Source: a virus
Strand: one strand, 5' to 3'
IMG/VR virus record: IMGVR_UViG_3300011116_000364
Location: 1 to 27,826 of that record
DNA length: 27,826 nucleotides
The notes beneath the pieces are model-generated. The model saw only the letters and a program-made list of their open reading frames with translations. It ran no database searches and had not been told where the DNA came from. This document shows, piece by piece, positions 2,839 through 27,826 of the stretch. Position 1 is the stretch's first letter. Every line of letters begins with the position of its first letter. A program made the position numbers and the translations under genes.

Positions 2839-3612
2839 ATGACCATGATGGACAACAGCGTTGATAGTGTTGTCGCTTCATCGTGTAGTTCGTCTAGTGA
2901 CGTGTGGCAACGTTGCCTACGTGCGCTCAAGCCCGGTGGTCATGCAGTTGTCCTTGCCGAGCCGACTGCATACCACCGTGTAGCGGTCGCTATTGAAGAT
3001 GCAGGCTTTGAGATTCGTGACCAAATCATCTGGCTGCATGATCGCCACAACTCCATCGTGCTCGCTCGCAAACCACTTGTCGGCACGGTTGCCAACAATG
3101 TCTTGACGTACGGTGTTGGTGGACTGAACATTGACGATACGAGAGTGCCAAGCGATGACGGATTCGAGAAGGCGTGGGACAGGCCAATAAGCACCAACAT
3201 CTCGGCTAAAGGTGGCAAGTTCATAAGTGAAGGTATCCAGCACACCGTTGACCTATCAGGGAACAAGCCGAAAGGCGGTCGCTGGCCTGCCAACGTCATC
3301 ACTGACGGTAGTGCTGGTGTAGTGGCAGGGTTTCCTGATAGTAACGGTGGCGCATTTCCTCAGAAATCAAATGTGCCAACAGGTCGCCATTATGAGGGTG
3401 GCTGGGGAGCGGTAGATAATGGCGTGCGAACTGAAATGGGTTCAGGTTCCGCAGTCCGCTTCTTCGCCACTGCACCCACGCAGATTTCACTATTTCGCTA
3501 TCTCATCAAACTCGTGACTCCACCGAACGGTGTAGTCCTTGACCCATTTGACGATTCCACCATTGCCGCTGCGATTGAGGCAGAAGGCATGACTAGAGCA
3601 AGGAACAAATAA
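2839..3612 (+). CDS. Degenerate DNA methyltransferase paralogue, catalytic motifs lost, 257 aa
   Basis: This is clearly homologous to the methyltransferase that follows: NSVDSVV, LRALKPGGHAVVLAEP, YHRVAVAIEDAGFEIRDQII, IVLARKPLVGTVANNVL, RWPANVITDGSAGVVAGFP and RYLIKLVTPPNGVVLDPF all have close counterparts. The catalytic parts are gone. Where the active copy has T-D-P-P-Y, this one has A-S-S-C-S (residues 13-17); where that one has the SAM-binding D-P-F-L-G-S-G-T-T, this has D-P-F-D-D-S-T-I-A. The YG/SGFPKS block is deleted and the C-terminus is cut short. The frame is nevertheless open over 257 codons. ATG 2839 is the first start after the upstream gene. The stop (TAA 3610-3612) abuts the GTG of the active gene, suggesting coupling. 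It may be a non-catalytic partner, a decoy or a gene in decay. Confidence 0.75.
   Translation: MTMMDNSVDSVVASSCSSSSDVWQRCLRALKPGGHAVVLAEPTAYHRVAVAIEDAGFEIRDQIIWLHDRHNSIVLARKPLVGTVANNVLTYGVGGLNIDDTRVPSDDGFEKAWDRPISTNISAKGGKFISEGIQHTVDLSGNKPKGGRWPANVITDGSAGVVAGFPDSNGGAFPQKSNVPTGRHYEGGWGAVDNGVRTEMGSGSAVRFFATAPTQISLFRYLIKLVTPPNGVVLDPFDDSTIAAAIEAEGMTRARNK
3055..3105 (+). repeat. Direct repeat A, copy 1 (51 bp)
   Basis: This segment of the degenerate methyltransferase gene matches 5530-5580 in the active gene at 50 of 51 positions and codes for IVLARKPLVGTVANNVL in both. Flanking sequence is much less similar, pointing to recent gene conversion or recombination between the paralogues. Confidence 0.85.
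3280..3335 (+). repeat. Direct repeat B, copy 1 (56 bp)
   Basis: This matches 5767-5822 at 53 of 56 positions and codes for RWPANVI-(T/H)-DGSAGVVAGFP in both methyltransferase genes. Confidence 0.85.
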
Positions 3613-6339
3613 GTGCTACTTCGTGGTGATTGCTTGGAACTCATACGACAGATGCCAGACAACAGCGTGGACAGTATCGTGACCGACCCACCGTATGAAC
3701 TTGGCTTCATGGGCAAGTCGTGGGACAACTCCGGCATTGCCTACAACGTTGAGTTGTGGACTGAGTGTCTACGAGTTCTGAAACCGGGCGGCCACCTGCT
3801 TGCCTTTGGTGGCAGTCGTACTTATCACCGCCTTGCTTGCGCCATTGAGGATGCTGGCTTTGAGGTGCGTGACCAGATCATGTGGCTCTACGGATGCCTT
3901 GACGAACAGACAGAGATGCTCGTAGACGGCAAGTGGATTTCCTACACAGACATTTCCGAAGGTCAGAACGCACTTGCGTATGACGCAGACAACGATGAGT
4001 ATTCTTGGCAACCTGTTCAACGAGTTATCCGATTCAACTACACAGACACGGCCTACAGGCTCTCTGGCGCACTCACCAATCAACTTGTGACTCGTGAGCA
4101 TCGCTGCCTTGTCAAGTCCGGCGATAAGTTTGTGTTTCAGGAAGCACAAGATGTTGCGCAAGTTGGATTTGCAGAAGTACCAGTTCTGCAGAATGTAGAT
4201 GCTCTGATTGACGCACTGACTCAACCGATAGAGTGGTCGTATGGCACAGGTCAATCGCAAACCGAACGTGACTTGCGACCTATGTGCGACGCCGATGTAT
4301 CGCCGTGCTTCGCAACTAGCGAATCAAATCGGCAAGTTCTGCTCACGAGCATGTCGCAACAAGGCGTATCCGTTGAAGAACGGCGACAATTTCCCACCAC
4401 CCAAGTTCGGAGCGAACAATCCAGCGTGGAAGGGCGGAGTGACTTACTTTCGCAAGCACGGCAACTACAAGCCGATACTTTACGTTCGCTGCCCAATAGA
4501 GTTTCTCTCAATGGCACGCAAGGACGGCTACGTGATGGAGCATCGGTTGATCGTAGCGAAAGCGATAGGTCGGCCACTTCTGCGAACCGAAGTGGTGCAC
4601 CACGAGAATCACAATCCACAAGACAACCGCTTGGCGAATCTGTCGCTATTCTTGACCAACCGAGATCACAAACTGTACGAGCATCACGGTTCACCACTAC
4701 CGATCTGGTCAGGGTTGAACCAGAGCATTACGACGGAGTGATGTGGTGCGTGACCGTTCCGAGTGGAGCGTTCGTGGCACGTCGCAATGGCAAAGTGTTC
4801 GTGACCGGAAACTCGGGCTTCCCGAAGTCGCTTGATGTTTCTAAGGCGATAGACAAAGCCGCTGGCGCGGAGCGTGAAGTCATTGGGAGCCAACGCACCA
4901 ATGTTGGTATGCAAGGCGGCAATTTCACAGCAGGGTCGCAAGCCGGAGATGTTGCTATCACCGCACCGGCAACCCCCGAAGCCCAACAATGGCAAGGCTG
5001 GGGAACGGCACTGAAACCGGCGTTTGAGCCAGTAATCGTCGCTCAGAAACCTTTGAGAAATAAGGACTACTGCGATTGGATAGGTTCACACTTTGCTACA
5101 CTGCAAGCATGGCTACAGCAGGAAGTAGAGAATCAAATCCAAACTGGCGAGGCGGACGATTCGTTCGTTCCGATGGATACGTCGCTGTCAGAATCGGCAA
5201 CAACTACGTTCTTGAACATCGTCTCATCATGGCTGAACATCTTGGCCGACCTTTATCGCCACGAGAACATGTACACCACGTCAATCGCATCAGGAATGAC
5301 AACCGACTGGAAAACCTTGCACTCATTAGCGTTGAAGATCACGCCAGAGAGCATCACAAGGGAACAGACAAATCCAAGTGGACTACAATCAACTGTTTTG
5401 GTTGTGGGCAATCTATTGAGCGGCGCATGGCTGTCCTTGCAAGGAATCCAAGGGCTTTCTGCGGTAGAGAGTGCTACAGACTTCACGCCAGAAAGACACC
5501 CGGCAGGAACCGAAGTTAGTCACGAGCCAATCGTGCTCGCTCGCAAACCACTTGTCGGCACAGTTGCCAACAATGTCTTGGAGTGGGGAACTGGTGCGCT
5601 GAACATTGACGGTTCACGAGTTGGGACTGAGATTTTAGGTGGCGGAACAATGCCGAACCTAAGAGATGTGGGCGCTATGAGCAAAGAATCCACTGGCATA
5701 GATAAGTTGAGTTTTGGTCAAAATCCAAGACCTGCCACTCGGATTGAGCAACCAACCTACGAAGGCCGCTGGCCTGCCAACGTCATCCACGACGGTAGTG
5801 CTGGTGTAGTGGCAGGGTTTCCGACAAGTTCTTCTAGCAAAACAAAGTCAAACGATAACCGTCAAAATAACGGCAACTCAATGTTTATGGATGGCAAACA
5901 CAGTCCTGACAATTCGTACACAGATTCAGGTTCCGCAGCCCGGTTCTTCTACTGCGCCAAGGCAGGAAAGTCCGAACGTAATGCAGGGCTGGAAGGGTTG
6001 CCAGAACGCCGTGAGTCTGACCGTGAGAAAGATGATGGCGTCGGCGGCGACAACCCACGGAACCGGAGCAATGCCGCAAAGGTGAACTTCCACCCAACAG
6101 TCAAGCCAATCGCCCTCATGCGCTACTTGGTGAAGTTGGTCACGCCACCCGGCGGCACAGTCCTAGACCCATTCCTCGGTAGTGGCACTACTGCCTGCGC
6201 TGCCATCATGGAAGGCTTTGAGTGGCTCGGCTGCGAGATGACTGAGGACTACTGGCCGATTATTGAAGCACGTACAGAATGGGCACGTGACGAGTTCGAC
6301 AAGATCGCCGTACAACCAAAGGCTTCAACACTGTTCTGA
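3613..6339 (+). CDS. DNA methyltransferase (N6A/N4C, beta-class order) with intein and a nested HNH insertion, 908-aa precursor
   Basis: This SAM-dependent amino-methyltransferase should modify adenine-N6 or cytosine-N4 in DNA. The catalytic motif TDPPY is at residues 24-28, followed by LKPGGHLLAFGG and FEVRDQIMWLYG. The SAM-binding motif DPFLGSGTT is C-terminal (852-860), preceded by HPTVKPIALMRYLVKLVTPP; this order fits the beta class. Residues 95-400 are an intein that separates YG from SGFPKSLDVSKAID. A 166-codon insertion begins near residue 472, between two versions of EP-x-IV-x-A-x-KPL, and carries an HNH gene in another frame. Without both, about 436 residues remain, a usual size. GTG 3613 is chosen because AAGGA lies about 8 nt upstream and the preceding stop abuts it. 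Roles could be protection against host restriction or regulation. Whether the enzyme works with the second insertion is unclear. Confidence 0.85.
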   Translation: MLLRGDCLELIRQMPDNSVDSIVTDPPYELGFMGKSWDNSGIAYNVELWTECLRVLKPGGHLLAFGGSRTYHRLACAIEDAGFEVRDQIMWLYGCLDEQTEMLVDGKWISYTDISEGQNALAYDADNDEYSWQPVQRVIRFNYTDTAYRLSGALTNQLVTREHRCLVKSGDKFVFQEAQDVAQVGFAEVPVLQNVDALIDALTQPIEWSYGTGQSQTERDLRPMCDADVSPCFATSESNRQVLLTSMSQQGVSVEERRQFPTTQVRSEQSSVEGRSDLLSQARQLQADTLRSLPNRVSLNGTQGRLRDGASVDRSESDRSATSANRSGAPRESQSTRQPLGESVAILDQPRSQTVRASRFTTTDLVRVEPEHYDGVMWCVTVPSGAFVARRNGKVFVTGNSGFPKSLDVSKAIDKAAGAEREVIGSQRTNVGMQGGNFTAGSQAGDVAITAPATPEAQQWQGWGTALKPAFEPVIVAQKPLRNKDYCDWIGSHFATLQAWLQQEVENQIQTGEADDSFVPMDTSLSESATTTFLNIVSSWLNILADLYRHENMYTTSIASGMTTDWKTLHSLALKITPESITREQTNPSGLQSTVLVVGNLLSGAWLSLQGIQGLSAVESATDFTPERHPAGTEVSHEPIVLARKPLVGTVANNVLEWGTGALNIDGSRVGTEILGGGTMPNLRDVGAMSKESTGIDKLSFGQNPRPATRIEQPTYEGRWPANVIHDGSAGVVAGFPTSSSSKTKSNDNRQNNGNSMFMDGKHSPDNSYTDSGSAARFFYCAKAGKSERNAGLEGLPERRESDREKDDGVGGDNPRNRSNAAKVNFHPTVKPIALMRYLVKLVTPPGGTVLDPFLGSGTTACAAIMEGFEWLGCEMTEDYWPIIEARTEWARDEFDKIAVQPKASTLF
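4208..4234 (+). promoter_or_regulatory. Candidate leaderless promoter P5 for the intein-nested HNH gene
   Basis: TTGACG (4208-4213), a short 15-nt spacer and TAGAGT (4229-4234). ATG 4241 follows 6 nt after the -10 box, exactly where transcription should begin. No Shine-Dalgarno sequence precedes the ATG. The TAG inside the -10 box is also an in-frame stop for the HNH frame, so that frame cannot be a direct extension of the upstream intein frame. The short spacer makes this tentative. Confidence 0.35.
4241..4741 (+). CDS. HNH homing endonuclease nested out of frame inside the intein, 166 aa
   Basis: This probably makes the DNA break that lets the intein spread into intein-free copies of the methyltransferase gene. 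An N-terminal zinc-finger-like segment has C12-x2-C15 and C34-x3-C38. A linker with NNPAWKGGVTYF follows. The HNH core has E100-H101, then VVHHENHNPQDNRLANLSLF (H120, H121, N129, N133), and a later RDHKLYEHH (H143, H148, H149), as in the HNH_3-type family of phage homing endonucleases. The whole frame lies inside the intein but is shifted by one base from it, and its last codons overlap the DNA of the intein C-terminal motif. No ribosome binding site is visible; a TANNNT box 6 nt before ATG 4241 suggests a leaderless message. Inteins normally carry the endonuclease as an in-frame domain. Confidence 0.82.
   Translation: MAQVNRKPNVTCDLCATPMYRRASQLANQIGKFCSRACRNKAYPLKNGDNFPPPKFGANNPAWKGGVTYFRKHGNYKPILYVRCPIEFLSMARKDGYVMEHRLIVAKAIGRPLLRTEVVHHENHNPQDNRLANLSLFLTNRDHKLYEHHGSPLPIWSGLNQSITTE
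5073..5102 (+). promoter_or_regulatory. Leaderless promoter P6 for the second HNH gene
   Basis: GGTTCACAC (5083-5091) is followed by TACACT (5097-5102), the same element and spacing as in P1 and P7 (GTTCAC 12-13 nt before the -10 box). ATG 5109 lies 6 nt after the -10 box and has no ribosome binding site. The -35 region is weak (TTGGAT at 5076-5081 or CGATTG at 5073-5078). It sits inside the methyltransferase reading frame. Confidence 0.5.
5109..5519 (+). CDS. HNH homing endonuclease nested in the third frame, 136 aa
   Basis: This is a phage-type HNH endonuclease. Residues 10-27 (NPNWRGGRF, then SDGYVAVRI) form the usual N-terminal strand region. The core is YVLEHRLIMAEHLGRPL (E36, H37), then HVHHVNRIRNDNRLENLALI (H56, H57, N63-D64-N65, N69) and EDHAREHH (H78, H82, H83). 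The C-terminal zinc-finger-like part has C96-x2-C99 and C118-x3-C122. HNH1 carries a similar Cys pattern (FCSRACR against FCGRECY) at its N-terminus. ATG 5109 is preferred over TTG 5076 because a TACACT box lies 6 nt before it; TAA at 5061-5063 closes the frame upstream. The stop at 5517-5519 lies directly before the resumed methyltransferase sequence. Its target is probably a related methyltransferase gene. Confidence 0.85.
   Translation: MATAGSRESNPNWRGGRFVRSDGYVAVRIGNNYVLEHRLIMAEHLGRPLSPREHVHHVNRIRNDNRLENLALISVEDHAREHHKGTDKSKWTTINCFGCGQSIERRMAVLARNPRAFCGRECYRLHARKTPGRNRS
5530..5580 (+). repeat. Direct repeat A, copy 2 (51 bp)
   Basis: This is the partner of 3055-3105 (50 of 51 identical). 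It begins just downstream of the HNH insertion, in the resumed methyltransferase sequence. Confidence 0.85.
5767..5822 (+). repeat. Direct repeat B, copy 2 (56 bp)
   Basis: This is the partner of 3280-3335 (53 of 56 identical); part of the conserved RWPANVI region of the methyltransferase. Confidence 0.85.
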
Positions 6340-22264: not shown

Positions 22265-25200
22265 TTAGAAGCCATGAGAAGCGAACTGAACTTGCATCAT
22301 TGGCACTTGGCTCACGGCTGCACCGACCACAAATGTTGCAGGTAGTGATGATTGCCCGGTCATTGTGAAGCCACATGGAATCTGGTGTGTTGTCGTGGCG
22401 CTTTGGTTCCATGGAGCCGGACTACCGACAGGGATGCCGTTAGCCGCAGCGTGAACTGACACTGCAGTTGCGGTCGTGATGTTGCCAACCACAAGCCAAT
22501 ACCAACCGGTGCGCATGTTCCACCACAGAGCACCTGCCGTCGTCTGTGCGATACCAGCCGCAGTGGCCGCAATCGTGACAGCCGTGCCACCGTAGTTGGC
22601 AACCGAAAAGTCAACAAGCAACGGCCCGGGCTTCGCTCTGCTATTGTCCGGCAAATACAGGCCGCATGTCAACTTGCCACCTGCTACGGCTGGCGATTGA
22701 ATGTAGGTCGCAAGTCCGGTCAGTGCACTGGTCACTGTTGAGTTCACGTAGAACGGAATGGCGTACAAGGTGCCTTGCGGCATTGTCATCGTGATGTTGC
22801 CAGCCTCTTGCGGCATGAGCACGTTCCAATAGCCGTCTGCGTATGGCAGCGTCGGGATTGGCGAACCTTCGGTTAGCGAGAACGCAGACATACCTGCCGT
22901 TGGCAAGTTGGTTGGCTGTCCCAAGAAACTGTTGTAGGCCGACGTGTAGAACTTGCTTGCGAAGTAACCAGCACCAAGTGAGTTCGGGTGAATACCGTCA
23001 CTTGAAATCCAACGCATGTCAATAACGTATGAACCACCAAACGTGAACGACCCACTGGTGACGGTGCTTGTTGCGTTTTGCGACAACACAAGTTGGTCAG
23101 GCCGACCGTTCACGTATCCGTCAATGACGGTGTTGTTTGGAATACCAGTGCCGGTGACGTTCGTGCCGGGAGCAAAGCCGGTGGTCTTGTAGACCGTGCC
23201 AACCGTCGTGAGTGCTGGCTGTTCGTTTGTTTGCGTACCGAGTTGCTGACGTGTAGGCGAAAGCCGTGTCCAGAAAGTTGTTGCGTCAATGACGTCAGTG
23301 ACCACGACCGGACCGTTGAAGTGAGCCGGTGCAAATCCGGTTGCGTAGATGGTGTCGCCAACTACGAGTCCGTGAGCCGACGTTGTGGTGTAGACCCAAG
23401 CCGTCTTGCTTGATTGTGTCCACGTGTCAATCGTCGTGACCGCTGGCACTGCCGTCAAGAAGTTACCTGATGACTTGGTGAGCGTGGCGCTGCCGCTTGT
23501 GCAGTTGGCAACAATGGTCTGTTGACCATACTGAGCGTTGCTTGGCTGCGTGTACCCTGCGATGCCACGATTGACGGCAAGCACCCATTCGGTTGCAGAC
23601 GTCTTGGTGATGTTCGTGACCATCATTTGTTCGTTGAACGCCACCTGCGGTTGTGGAAATCCAAAGATGGGTGGATTGGTGCCACCGTTGACAATGGCTT
23701 GGCCGTTGCTGATGACCATGATGCGCATGTTCTTGTCACCGACATAGTTGCCGTACTCGTCTTGACCGAACGTGCTGCCCGGCTGCAGCGTGACGGTGAT
23801 TGAAGCGGCTGTGTTGGAGAACGTGCTTTTGAGATTGCCGGTGCGTTGAAACACGTCGGCGTCAATGTCAACAAGCACAAGATTGCTTGCACCAATGCTT
23901 GCGCTCTGGCTGTTGTAGATCGCCTTGGTCTGCTTGTTGAGCGAGTAGGACATACCTACTTGGTCGTTCAAGATACGTGGACTGGTCGCCATCATTACAG
24001 GTGACAGACTGTCTGCGTCACGACTCCAACCATCGAACACAACGCAAGGCTGGATGGTGCCCGAAGTTGATGGGTTGGTGCCTGCCGTGTTCATGGTCAA
24101 CACGTTGCGACTTGAAGTTGTTGTGCCGGTGACGTAAAGACCCATCGTGTTGCTTGGCACGCCTTGACCAGTAACGATTGACGGCACGTAGAGAAGCGGT
24201 GCTGCCGTGCCTGAGCCAATCGTTCCAACAATGTAGTCAGTGCTTCCGTTGGCCGTTGTCGGCGCTGCAGCAAATGAACTTGCAACCGGTACGCCTGCCA
24301 CCGTTGAAATGATGGTCTTGCCAGCATCCGAGCCAAGGCAGTTGAACGTGGCGACACGCATGATCGGTTGACCGAACTCACCTTGTGCGGAGAGTGCGAG
24401 CGAACCAGTTGCGGCTGAGCACGTACCAGAGAAGTCAACTCGCAGTGCGTTTGGTTCCTCTGCGCTTGTGCCCCAAAAGTGGAGCCGAACGGTGCCACCT
24501 TGGAATGTGGTCGGCAGTGTGACCGTGATGGTCGAACCGTTGACGACCGAAGCCAACTGAGTCGGGCCGGTGCCAATGTTGGTCTTTTGCGTTGTCCATG
24601 TGCCACCGGTTGAGATGGTGGAGTGCGTAGACGGATAGAGCGAACCAGCGTTCAGTCGTGACACCACGCCACGAACCACGTTCTGCCAAGCGGTGAGTCC
24701 TGACCACTGTGTTGAAGCAATCGTCTGCACGGACGCTTGGCCGGTAAACAATGTCAATAGCACATCGTTGATACCGTGCACAAACAACGAAGGCGGCTGA
24801 CTGACGGTCGGGTAAATCTGGTCACTGAACGAAGCGTTGTTTGCGCCCTTGTAGCCGTAAGGCACAATCATCTGGCACAGCGAACCCCAGTCCGATGAGT
24901 TCGGTGAGTTGCGAATGTCGGTAAGTGCAGCACCGGAAGTTGACAAGTTGATGACGTCAACGGTGTTCACGCCGAACATGGCCTGCAAGCGTGAGGCAAG
25001 GTTGCCGTAGTTCACGTCAGGGTTGGTTGCACCGGCTGCACCAAGCCATGAGTGACCGAACAGTTCGATGGCTGAAATTGGATTCTGTGGTGCGCCGTTA
25101 GCGATGCTTGTGACCACACCAACCGATGACACGGTGACGTTGGCGTTATTGTACGAACCCGGTGTCACAGACGCTTGCGTGGCTAGCGAGATGACCGAGC

Positions 25201-26290
25201 CTGACGTGATCTGCACCGGGTAGACAGCCGACGCAACACCAACTGTACCCGGAGCACCCTGTGGCCCAGTGGCACCAACCGAACCAGTAGCACCAGCCGG
25301 AATGTAGAAGTTGAGAATTGCGTTACTTGGTGTGCCGGTATTGGTAACTGATGCAGCCGAACCGTATGCAACCGAAGCGGTAGAGCCAACCACGACGCTT
25401 GCAGCCGTGCCTTGTGCACCTTGCGCACCAACTGAACCTGACGTACCTTGCGGGCCTTGTGGGCCGACTGAACCTGCAGCACCTTGAGCACCAGTTGCAC
25501 CAACTGAACCGGTTGCACCTTGAGCGCCTGTTGCGCCTTGTGCGCCTGCCGGAATGAAGAAGTTGAGCACGGCACTTGTGGTCGTGCCGGTATTCGTTAC
25601 CGATGCTGCCGAGCCGTATGCGACCGATGCTGTTGTTCCGACCGCCACACTGGCGGCTGTACCTTGAACACCTTGAGCGCCAACTGAACCAGCCGTGCCT
25701 TGCGCACCAGTTGCACCTTGGGCACCAGCCGGGATAAAGAAGTTGAGTACGGCGTTGGTTGTGTTGCCACTGTTGGTGACCGATGCTGCCGAGCCATAGG
25801 CAACTGATGCAGTAGTGCCAACGGCAACGCTAGCGGCTGTACCTTGTGCGCCTTGAGCACCGACTGAACCAGATGTTCCTTGTGCACCTGTAGCACCTTG
25901 TGAACCTTGCGGACCGACCGAACCTGATGTGCCTTGTGCGCCCTGTGCGCCCTGCGGCCCCACGGAACCGGCTGCACCTTGCGCTCCTTGCGCACCAGTG
26001 GAACCAGATGTTCCCGAAGCACCGGTTGCACCTTGCGCACCCTGAGCACCCTGAGCGCCAACTGGAATGTAGAAGTTCAGGATGGCACTTGTTGACGTAC
26101 CGGTGTTGGTGACCGATGCCGCAGAACTTGAAGCGATCGACGCAGTTGTACCGACAGACACACTTGCCGCAGCACCTTGATTGCCCTGCGGACCGCCTGA
26201 TGGACCCTGTGCTCCGGGTGCACCTTGAGCACCGACGACCGCCGTGACCCACGTGCTTGATGCTGCGTCGTAGTACTTGAGTTGGGTCAT
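22265..26290 (-). CDS. Collagen-like fibre protein with SGNH hydrolase domain, 1341 aa
   Basis: This is a virion fibre with an enzyme head. Residues about 15-385 contain collagen-like G-x-y runs ([13 protein letters not shown]) alternating with four copies of a 37-residue cassette (AASVxVGTTASxA to NFxIP), which should trimerise. From about residue 400 an SGNH/GDSL hydrolase begins: block I is ELFGHSW (Ser414), block III is HGINDVL (N508, D509), and block V is SSDGIHPN (Asp1098, His1101). The approximately 590 residues between blocks III and V include two beta-rich inserts, so the hydrolase is spread over the gene. It may deacetylate or de-esterify surface sugars. ATG 26290 overlaps the preceding TGA (ATGA) and has AGGAATCAA upstream. 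Ends with a beta-rich C-terminal domain (about 1150-1341). Confidence 0.8.
25298..26173 (-). repeat. Four 111-bp fibre cassettes
   Basis: Copies at 25298-25408, 25550-25660, 25730-25840 and 26063-26173, each 37 codons long, separated by collagen-like runs of varying length. Copies 2 and 3 (in plus coordinates) are nearly identical. A fifth, partial one lies at 27776-27826 in the neighbouring gene. They could allow recombination that changes fibre length. Confidence 0.8.
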
Positions 26291-27826
26291 TTGATTCCTA
26301 ACCAAAGAAGGCGACTGAACGAACCGGGCGTGCCGGTGAACGGAGATGGCAGAGCGCTGACTGATGCCGGACCACTGAGCGCACGACCACCGCCTGCGAA
26401 CGTGCCAGATGTCTGCGTCGAGCCGATGTTGATGACCGTGCTTCCAGCCAAGGCGACCACTGACAACGATGGCGCTGTTGTGGCGCTGCCGATGAGCACG
26501 GCGATGTAGTAGATCGTGTTGGCGTAGAGCGTTACCGATGACGTGAGTCCCACTGTGATTGCGCCGGTGTTGGTGCCGAGCGTTGCCGAGAAGTCACTGG
26601 ATACGGCGAGCCTTGCTCCTGCCTGTGAGTAGATGCCGACGTAGCAGTTGGCCGGTACGGACGCCGCCGATGTGACGTTGAACGTGACGCTCGCTGCCGT
26701 GACTGTCATTGGCGACGTGAAGCCGCAATAGACCGGAGTGCCTGCGGTGAGTGCCGTGCCGCCGGTGAGCACGGTCGCCGGGTCGCCAGTCCAACCTTGG
26801 AAGCCTTGCGCCTGCGGAGTCCATGAGTTGTTGTACATGGGAACTGATTGCGGGTTAGAGGCGGTGACGTAGACCGTAGGTCCGCCAGCGTACGAACCTT
26901 GATAGTTGTACGAACTGCCCGGCGGCATCGTAAAAGGCTGCGTGGTTGCAACTCCTGCAACAGTGACCGCTCCGGGCTGCGCCGAGTTGGTGATGGTAAA
27001 TGATGTTGTTGTTGGCGTTGATGCAACCGTGTACGAACTTCCGTTGTAGGCCGTTGGCGTTAGACCACCAAGCACAACTGTTTGACCAACCGAGAAGCCG
27101 TGTGCCGCTCCGGTCGTGACCGTCCATGTTGTGCCGTTGGTCGTAATGCCGCCAGCCGATACAACGTATGACGTATACGTGGTGCCGTAGACATTAAGTA
27201 CTCCTGCTTGAGATGCCACGTTGGAGTTGGCAAGAAGCAAACAAGTTTGAGTAGAGACGTTGGTAATAATTTGGGGAACGGCATTTTGCGTTGCCGACCC
27301 GTTGATGACCAAGATGCCGGGACTAGCGCCTGTGTAAATTTGCTTGAAACCAAGGCCGAGCGTTGTGTTGGCGGCTGTGATGTTTGATGTAGATGTAAGC
27401 GAGCCGATTGCCGTGAAGTTGCCGGACGTTGGCGTGACTTCAAGAAAATAGTTGCTTGTGCCATCAGTCCAGACGATTGCAGGCAGTCCGGACGGAATGT
27501 AGTACGACGACGATGACCTGTTTAGAACAGCACTTGCAGTTGGGGTCACTGTGACTTGACTGCTTGATGAGACGTAAGTGGCGAGCCACGGTGCTGCCGG
27601 TGGCGTTGCTGGAAGCGTGACAATGCAAGCGCCAGAAAATACAATCATCTTGCCGTTGTCGGCTGCTGATGCTGTCCATGTCGTTGCTGCTGATGTTGTA
27701 ACTGAGCCAGCGATCTGACTCGTGCCTTGTGCTCCCTGCGAACCCTGTGCGCCTGTCGCTCCCTGCGAACCCACTGGAATGTAGAAGTTGAGTACAGCGT
27801 TGCTTGACGTTCCGGTGTTCGTTACC
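26287..27826 (-). CDS. Collagen-like fibre protein, 5' end outside the window
   Basis: The frame runs off the right edge: codons upstream of the GTG at 27774 continue a cassette identical in type to those of the downstream gene ([20 protein letters not shown]), so that GTG codes for an internal Val and is not the start. A short G-x-y run ([13 protein letters not shown]) follows, then beta-rich domains of about 470 residues: [17 protein letters not shown], then [13 protein letters not shown], a possible Ig-like or spike repeat ([16 protein letters not shown]) also echoed in the neighbouring gene ([15 protein letters not shown]), and a C-terminal part with [18 protein letters not shown], similar to carbohydrate-binding folds. 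It is probably a second fibre. The TGA overlaps the ATG of the next gene. Confidence 0.72.

Follow-up and report, generated by a model that had tools for sequence, protein, structure and literature searches.

A homing gene that lies within conserved codons is thought to spare its host only with the help of an intron or an intein. Inteins and group I introns that bear homing endonucleases resemble the element analyzed here in being insertions at conserved codons, in carrying an endonuclease, and in having relatives with an empty site. The closest described system is the ShiLan domain of mycobacteriophage methylases, an insertion with an HNH gene in the third frame (PMC9957025, PMC11855218). The ShiLan element begins with an 11-residue repeat of its downstream flank, which has already been described, and its HNH was reported to have no detectable ribosome-binding site, so that leaderless initiation was suggested (PMC11855218). 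Mobility of the domain is supported by published phylogenies (PMC9957025). Applejack gp54/gp55 is also among the closest known systems, the likeness being drawn from its announcement alone and not from sequence (PMC12613952). The insertion in Pacc40 gp60, compared here by its published description alone, lies in another methylase family and at another site (PMC11855218).

We analyzed a 27,826-base IMG/VR virus record, referred to in its full length as the window. It contains an N6/N4 DNA methyltransferase ORF (Pfam N6_N4_Mtase, E 5e-31; phrog_67, E 3e-73) whose frame is uninterrupted over its whole length. Motif IV (DPPY, 3685-3696) comes first and motif I (DPFLGSGT, 6166-6189) last. Both are conserved in the methyltransferase alignment, and the catalytic motifs are kept in invaded copies. 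The features of the gene are as follows.

3613-6339, plus strand: host gene, an N6/N4 DNA methyltransferase ORF of 908 aa with a GTG start
3895-4812, plus strand: intein with Cys as its first residue and Asn as its last, followed by Ser
4241-4741, plus strand: HNH1, an out-of-frame ORF nested in the intein at offset 1 (Pfam HNH_3, E 7e-7)
5026-5523, plus strand: insertion of 498 nt (166 codons), stop-free in the methyltransferase frame
5026-5058, plus strand: repeated flank EPVIVAQKPLR, carried by the element, a diverged copy of the downstream host segment
5061-5066, plus strand: candidate Shine-Dalgarno (SD) sequence TAAGGA for HNH2, 9 nt 5' of TTG 5076
5076-5519, plus strand: HNH2 ORF at offset 2, 147 aa from TTG 5076 or 136 aa from ATG 5109
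5524-5556, plus strand: host copy of the repeated segment, EPIVLARKPLV, then GTVANNVL, in the same context as in uninvaded relatives

Two other parts of the window were also noted. A decayed methyltransferase paralogue with an N6_N4_Mtase match lies directly 5' of the host gene (2842-3612); it is without DPPY and has DPFDDST where DPFLGSGT is expected. On the minus strand (22265-27774), two large ORFs, probably tail-associated, carry long collagen-like GAQGAQG/GATGAQG repeats.

Eighty related methyltransferases were fetched from IMG/VR, and 77 of them were readable at the insertion site. All 77 are continuous at the empty site, which reads GTALKPAH^EPIVVARKPL with minor variation, and the segment 5026-5523, bounded by two GAG codons, is therefore an insertion. 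Because its first 11 codons repeat host sequence, the foreign part comprises about 155 residues. The repeat is found as E..h.A.KP in nearly all copies of the element. Read in the host frame, the insert had no credible match in Pfam or PHROGs. A search with the host-frame alignment (A2) found no clear case of the insert kept without the HNH, its extra matches being mostly the GTALKPAxE anchor alone.

The HNH2 frame is open from 5064 to the stop codon TAG at 5517-5519 and leaves only about 54-87 nt of the insertion outside the ORF. Its product matches Pfam HNH_3 (E 1.4e-9) and PHROG HNH families (E down to 1e-19) and is 51-61% identical to other nested HNHs. It consists of an HNH_3 core and a C-terminal CxxC..C..C zinc finger, while the N-terminal zinc finger of its relatives is missing. 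The intein upstream in the same gene has a weak Pfam Intein_splicing match (ORF residues 112-389), and its boundaries were set by uninvaded relatives reading WLYG^SGFPKS. For HNH1, nested in this intein, the host frame is the other alternative frame, which is likewise stop-free. An HNH related to HNH1 was also seen within the intein of the methyltransferase of contig L137 (1263-2324). Since the offsets of HNH1 and HNH2 are 1 and 2, respectively, all three forward frames of the gene are in use.

An earlier note on this DNA, made from the sequence alone, had described the 498-nt, 166-codon insertion between GAG codons, the open methyltransferase frame across it, an HNH gene at 5109-5519 in the third frame, a foreign insert of roughly 155 residues, and the use of all three frames. 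These claims stand with all their coordinates, and the comparison with homologues lacking the insertion, which the note had proposed, is the one that yielded the 77 empty sites. What the note missed were the repeated flank and the identity with the ShiLan domain.

That identity emerged from a tblastn search with HNH2 against phage records, which found similar HNHs in the methylases of the mycobacteriophages ShiLan, Starcevich, Mantra, OwlsT2W, Filuzino, Bipolar, MISSy, and others. Identity to these hidden HNHs was 51-56% over 96-99% of the length; for ShiLan it was 56% over 96% of the query (E 2e-43), and for the cyanophage Cr-LKS3 54.5% over 82%. Compared with those same relatives, the host-frame reading of the window insert was only about 30% identical. 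The window element and the ShiLan domain have in common the methylase family, the site KPAx^EPIVVARKPL, the third-frame HNH, the stop-free host frame, the 11-residue repeat of the downstream flank, the lack of any intein or intron motif, and a patchy distribution. They differ in that the window copy has 166 codons as against 202 in ShiLan and has lost the N-terminal zinc finger. By these sequence characters, we identify the window insertion as a divergent, distant member of the ShiLan domain (PMC9957025, PMC11855218). Unlike inteins and group I introns, it has neither a splicing domain nor a ribozyme, and the insert would stay in the product. The kind of element is already known; what is new here is the breadth of the family, the test of stop avoidance, and the ribosome-binding site.

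The family as found here extends beyond mycobacteriophages to one cyanophage and many uncultured phages. Further nested copies were added by a profile scan, which detected many in uncultured phages and one on a bacterial MAG contig (L182). In each of the 67 nested matches, the host frame is stop-free and the HNH lies at offset 2 to it; zero stops was one of the criteria defining the nested set, and it removed nothing because stops were absent from every match with an in-frame methyltransferase C-part. The architecture GTALKPxx | E..h.A.KP ... | EPIVLARKPL is common to 53 non-identical copies, among which the insert measures 139-224 codons, always a whole number (the pattern set the right boundary of one of them, L120, wrongly). 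In L144 (2896-3423) and L149 (2308-2868), the HNH lies slightly upstream, before GTSLKP or NVALKP, which is another site, again with the host frame open.

More HNH ORFs were seen 3' of the first nested one in L001 (2272-2541), L111 (3897-4280), L147 (4015-4455), and L150 (3012-3272). Each has one stop-free alternative frame, and they are probably nested elsewhere in that gene.

Two cases depart from this pattern. In L138 (1512-4775) and L137 (812-3414), on contigs of 257 and 289 kb, the N-terminal part of the methyltransferase stops just past the repeated segment, the HNH is a separate gene, and no in-frame C-terminal part adjoins. In L138, a C-terminal ORF restarts at the repeated segment, beginning EVRVITVARKPLSGTVA; it is without the HPTxKP and FxGxG motifs and looks truncated and decayed. 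Since both carry host-frame stops, an open frame is not obligatory everywhere.

We then asked how many host-frame stops the HNH sequence alone would predict. Synonymous codons were shuffled with the HNH protein and its codon counts held fixed, using 44 nested clusters at 80% nucleotide identity. The host frame had 0 stops where 50.4 were expected (sum of log10 P -35), while the other alternative frame had 392 against 391 expected. In a set without methyltransferase flanks, the equivalent frame had 86 stops against 89.9 expected; besides a few unclassified cases, this set includes HNH1 of the window, for which the other alternative frame is the host frame. Free-standing HNH relatives thus show no avoidance of host-frame stops. 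For the window alone, 1.69 stops were expected and none was seen (P = 0.07). Chance is therefore a weakly unlikely explanation of the open frame in the window, and across the 44 clusters the evidence against it is overwhelming.

Amino-acid constraint in the host frame was modest. In close pairs (80-99.5% nucleotide identity), a dN/dS-like ratio, which is a simple count from few and non-independent pairs, was 0.31-0.67 for the host frame; the control frame gave 0.76-1.87 and the HNH 0.15-0.33. For pairs at 70-80% identity, the host-frame ratio was 0.46-0.94. The free-standing HNH control held 31 substitutions, too few for use. Taken by their sequences, the relatives indicate that both frames are held by selection, and the insert is probably retained in the methyltransferase as an added loop.

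The alternative that fares best is that two parts of the enzyme, N-terminal and C-terminal, are made and associate, the repeated segment being present in each of them. A full copy is present on both sides of the insert; L138 shows a natural split at precisely this point, its HNH being a gene of its own, and the N-terminal part of L137 ends right past the segment. However, no stop closes the N-terminal part in any of the 53 copies, and the C-terminal ORF of L138, with its motifs missing, looks decayed. We regard this arrangement as improbable. The earlier note had named both outcomes, and the one with a foreign insert in the enzyme is favored by the 53 whole-codon, stop-free copies and by the 44-cluster test, along with the modest amino-acid constraint on the host frame.

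Removal of the segment from the protein by an unrecognized splicing domain would likewise need an open host frame, and a true intein is present elsewhere in the same gene. Against this, Pfam gave no intein match within 5026-5523, as the note had claimed from the lack of motifs. All listed copies begin with Glu; their last residue differs from copy to copy (H, L, W, F, S, V, C, and others), and the residue after the insert is mostly E, D, T, or S; in the window, they are Glu, His, and Glu. With such ends, the standard chemistry of Cys/Ser ... Asn plus Cys/Ser/Thr is not available. The intein reading was rejected on the missing motifs and the variable ends, and protein splicing of any kind is very unlikely.

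Excision from the RNA, by an intron of minimal or unknown type that contains an endonuclease ORF, is slightly less likely still. The 5' end of the element resembles the 3' flank, as is sometimes the case in group I introns (PMC11855218). However, an intron has no reason to avoid host-frame stops, and the absence of all of about 50 expected argues strongly against it and for read-through. The 54-87 nt outside the ORF leave no room for a group I core, as the note had stated, and a search with Rfam covariance models found no intron and no group I core at E up to 1, the sole match being a chance snoRNA at 4322-4431. The Rfam result and the stop avoidance led us to reject the intron reading.

Equally hard to credit is that the open frame simply follows from HNH codon usage in a methyltransferase that is just a broken gene. 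Chance would allow this in the window taken alone, but it is rejected for the family, where the shuffled sequences still predict 50 stops over the 44 clusters, the stop count of the second alternative frame agrees with expectation, and the catalytic motifs are intact.

We next considered how the HNH is translated. SD matches of at least 5 nt preceded 30 of 73 starts lying directly 5' of the N-terminal zinc finger and 20 of 294 other in-frame starts (P 9e-12); matches of at least 6 nt preceded 7 of the 294. GGAGG-type sites often precede HNH starts, unlike in the published account, and ShiLan itself is included. The SD and start contexts read ctGGAGGacgaGTG in ShiLan and ttGGAGGcccgtttATG in Cr-LKS3. 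The ShiLan HNH start is accordingly placed here at the GTG that follows GGAGG, and not at the one that lies 18 bp into the insertion. The sites sit within host-frame codons, where RLExxLW is a recurrent host peptide. In the window, TAAGGA before TTG 5076 is one instance only, and the alternative start, ATG 5109, is aligned with the starts of relatives but is without an SD sequence; HNH2 may start at either codon. A ribosome-binding site, where the published ShiLan description saw none, makes the published question of how the hidden HNH is translated directly testable.

In all 44 pairs compared, the similarity of the HNH exceeded that of the flanking methyltransferase (mean 0.87 versus 0.59). 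These pairs were picked for an HNH identity of at least 75%, which biases the comparison and leaves HNH2 of the window, at 51-61%, below the threshold. Similar elements in less similar host genes fit homing, and because the pairs were chosen on HNH identity this is suggestive only.

Our preferred reading, which we consider likely from the sequence comparisons, is that the window carries a homing element of the ShiLan type, free of splicing, with an internally started HNH and a dual-coding insert that the host tolerates. The HNH protein would be made by ribosomes that initiate within the methyltransferase mRNA, at an SD sequence inside the methyltransferase frame. It would cut the empty site in the methyltransferase genes of co-infecting phages, and repair would copy the element into that site. 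Read in the host frame, the element is a stop-free, Ser/Thr-rich stretch, and it brings along a copy of the segment that it interrupts, E-x-h-h-h-A-x-KP, which is probably a beta strand. Once the element is in place, the segment would be complete in each half of the enzyme, the halves being separated by a loop of about 150 residues, and the product could remain active. Splicing would be unneeded because the element is dual-coding, consists of complete codons, and supplies the interrupted segment a second time.

For the family as a whole, we lean toward the view that splicing-free, dual-coding homing elements are widespread, with a ribosome-binding site leading the internal start of the endonuclease and with a stop-free, partly constrained host-frame loop behind an element-supplied copy of the segment. 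There is neither an intron nor an intein here, yet the host frame stays open across 44 lineages. If this view is true, overprinting together with a spare copy of the interrupted segment would be a third mode of coexistence between a homing gene and its host.
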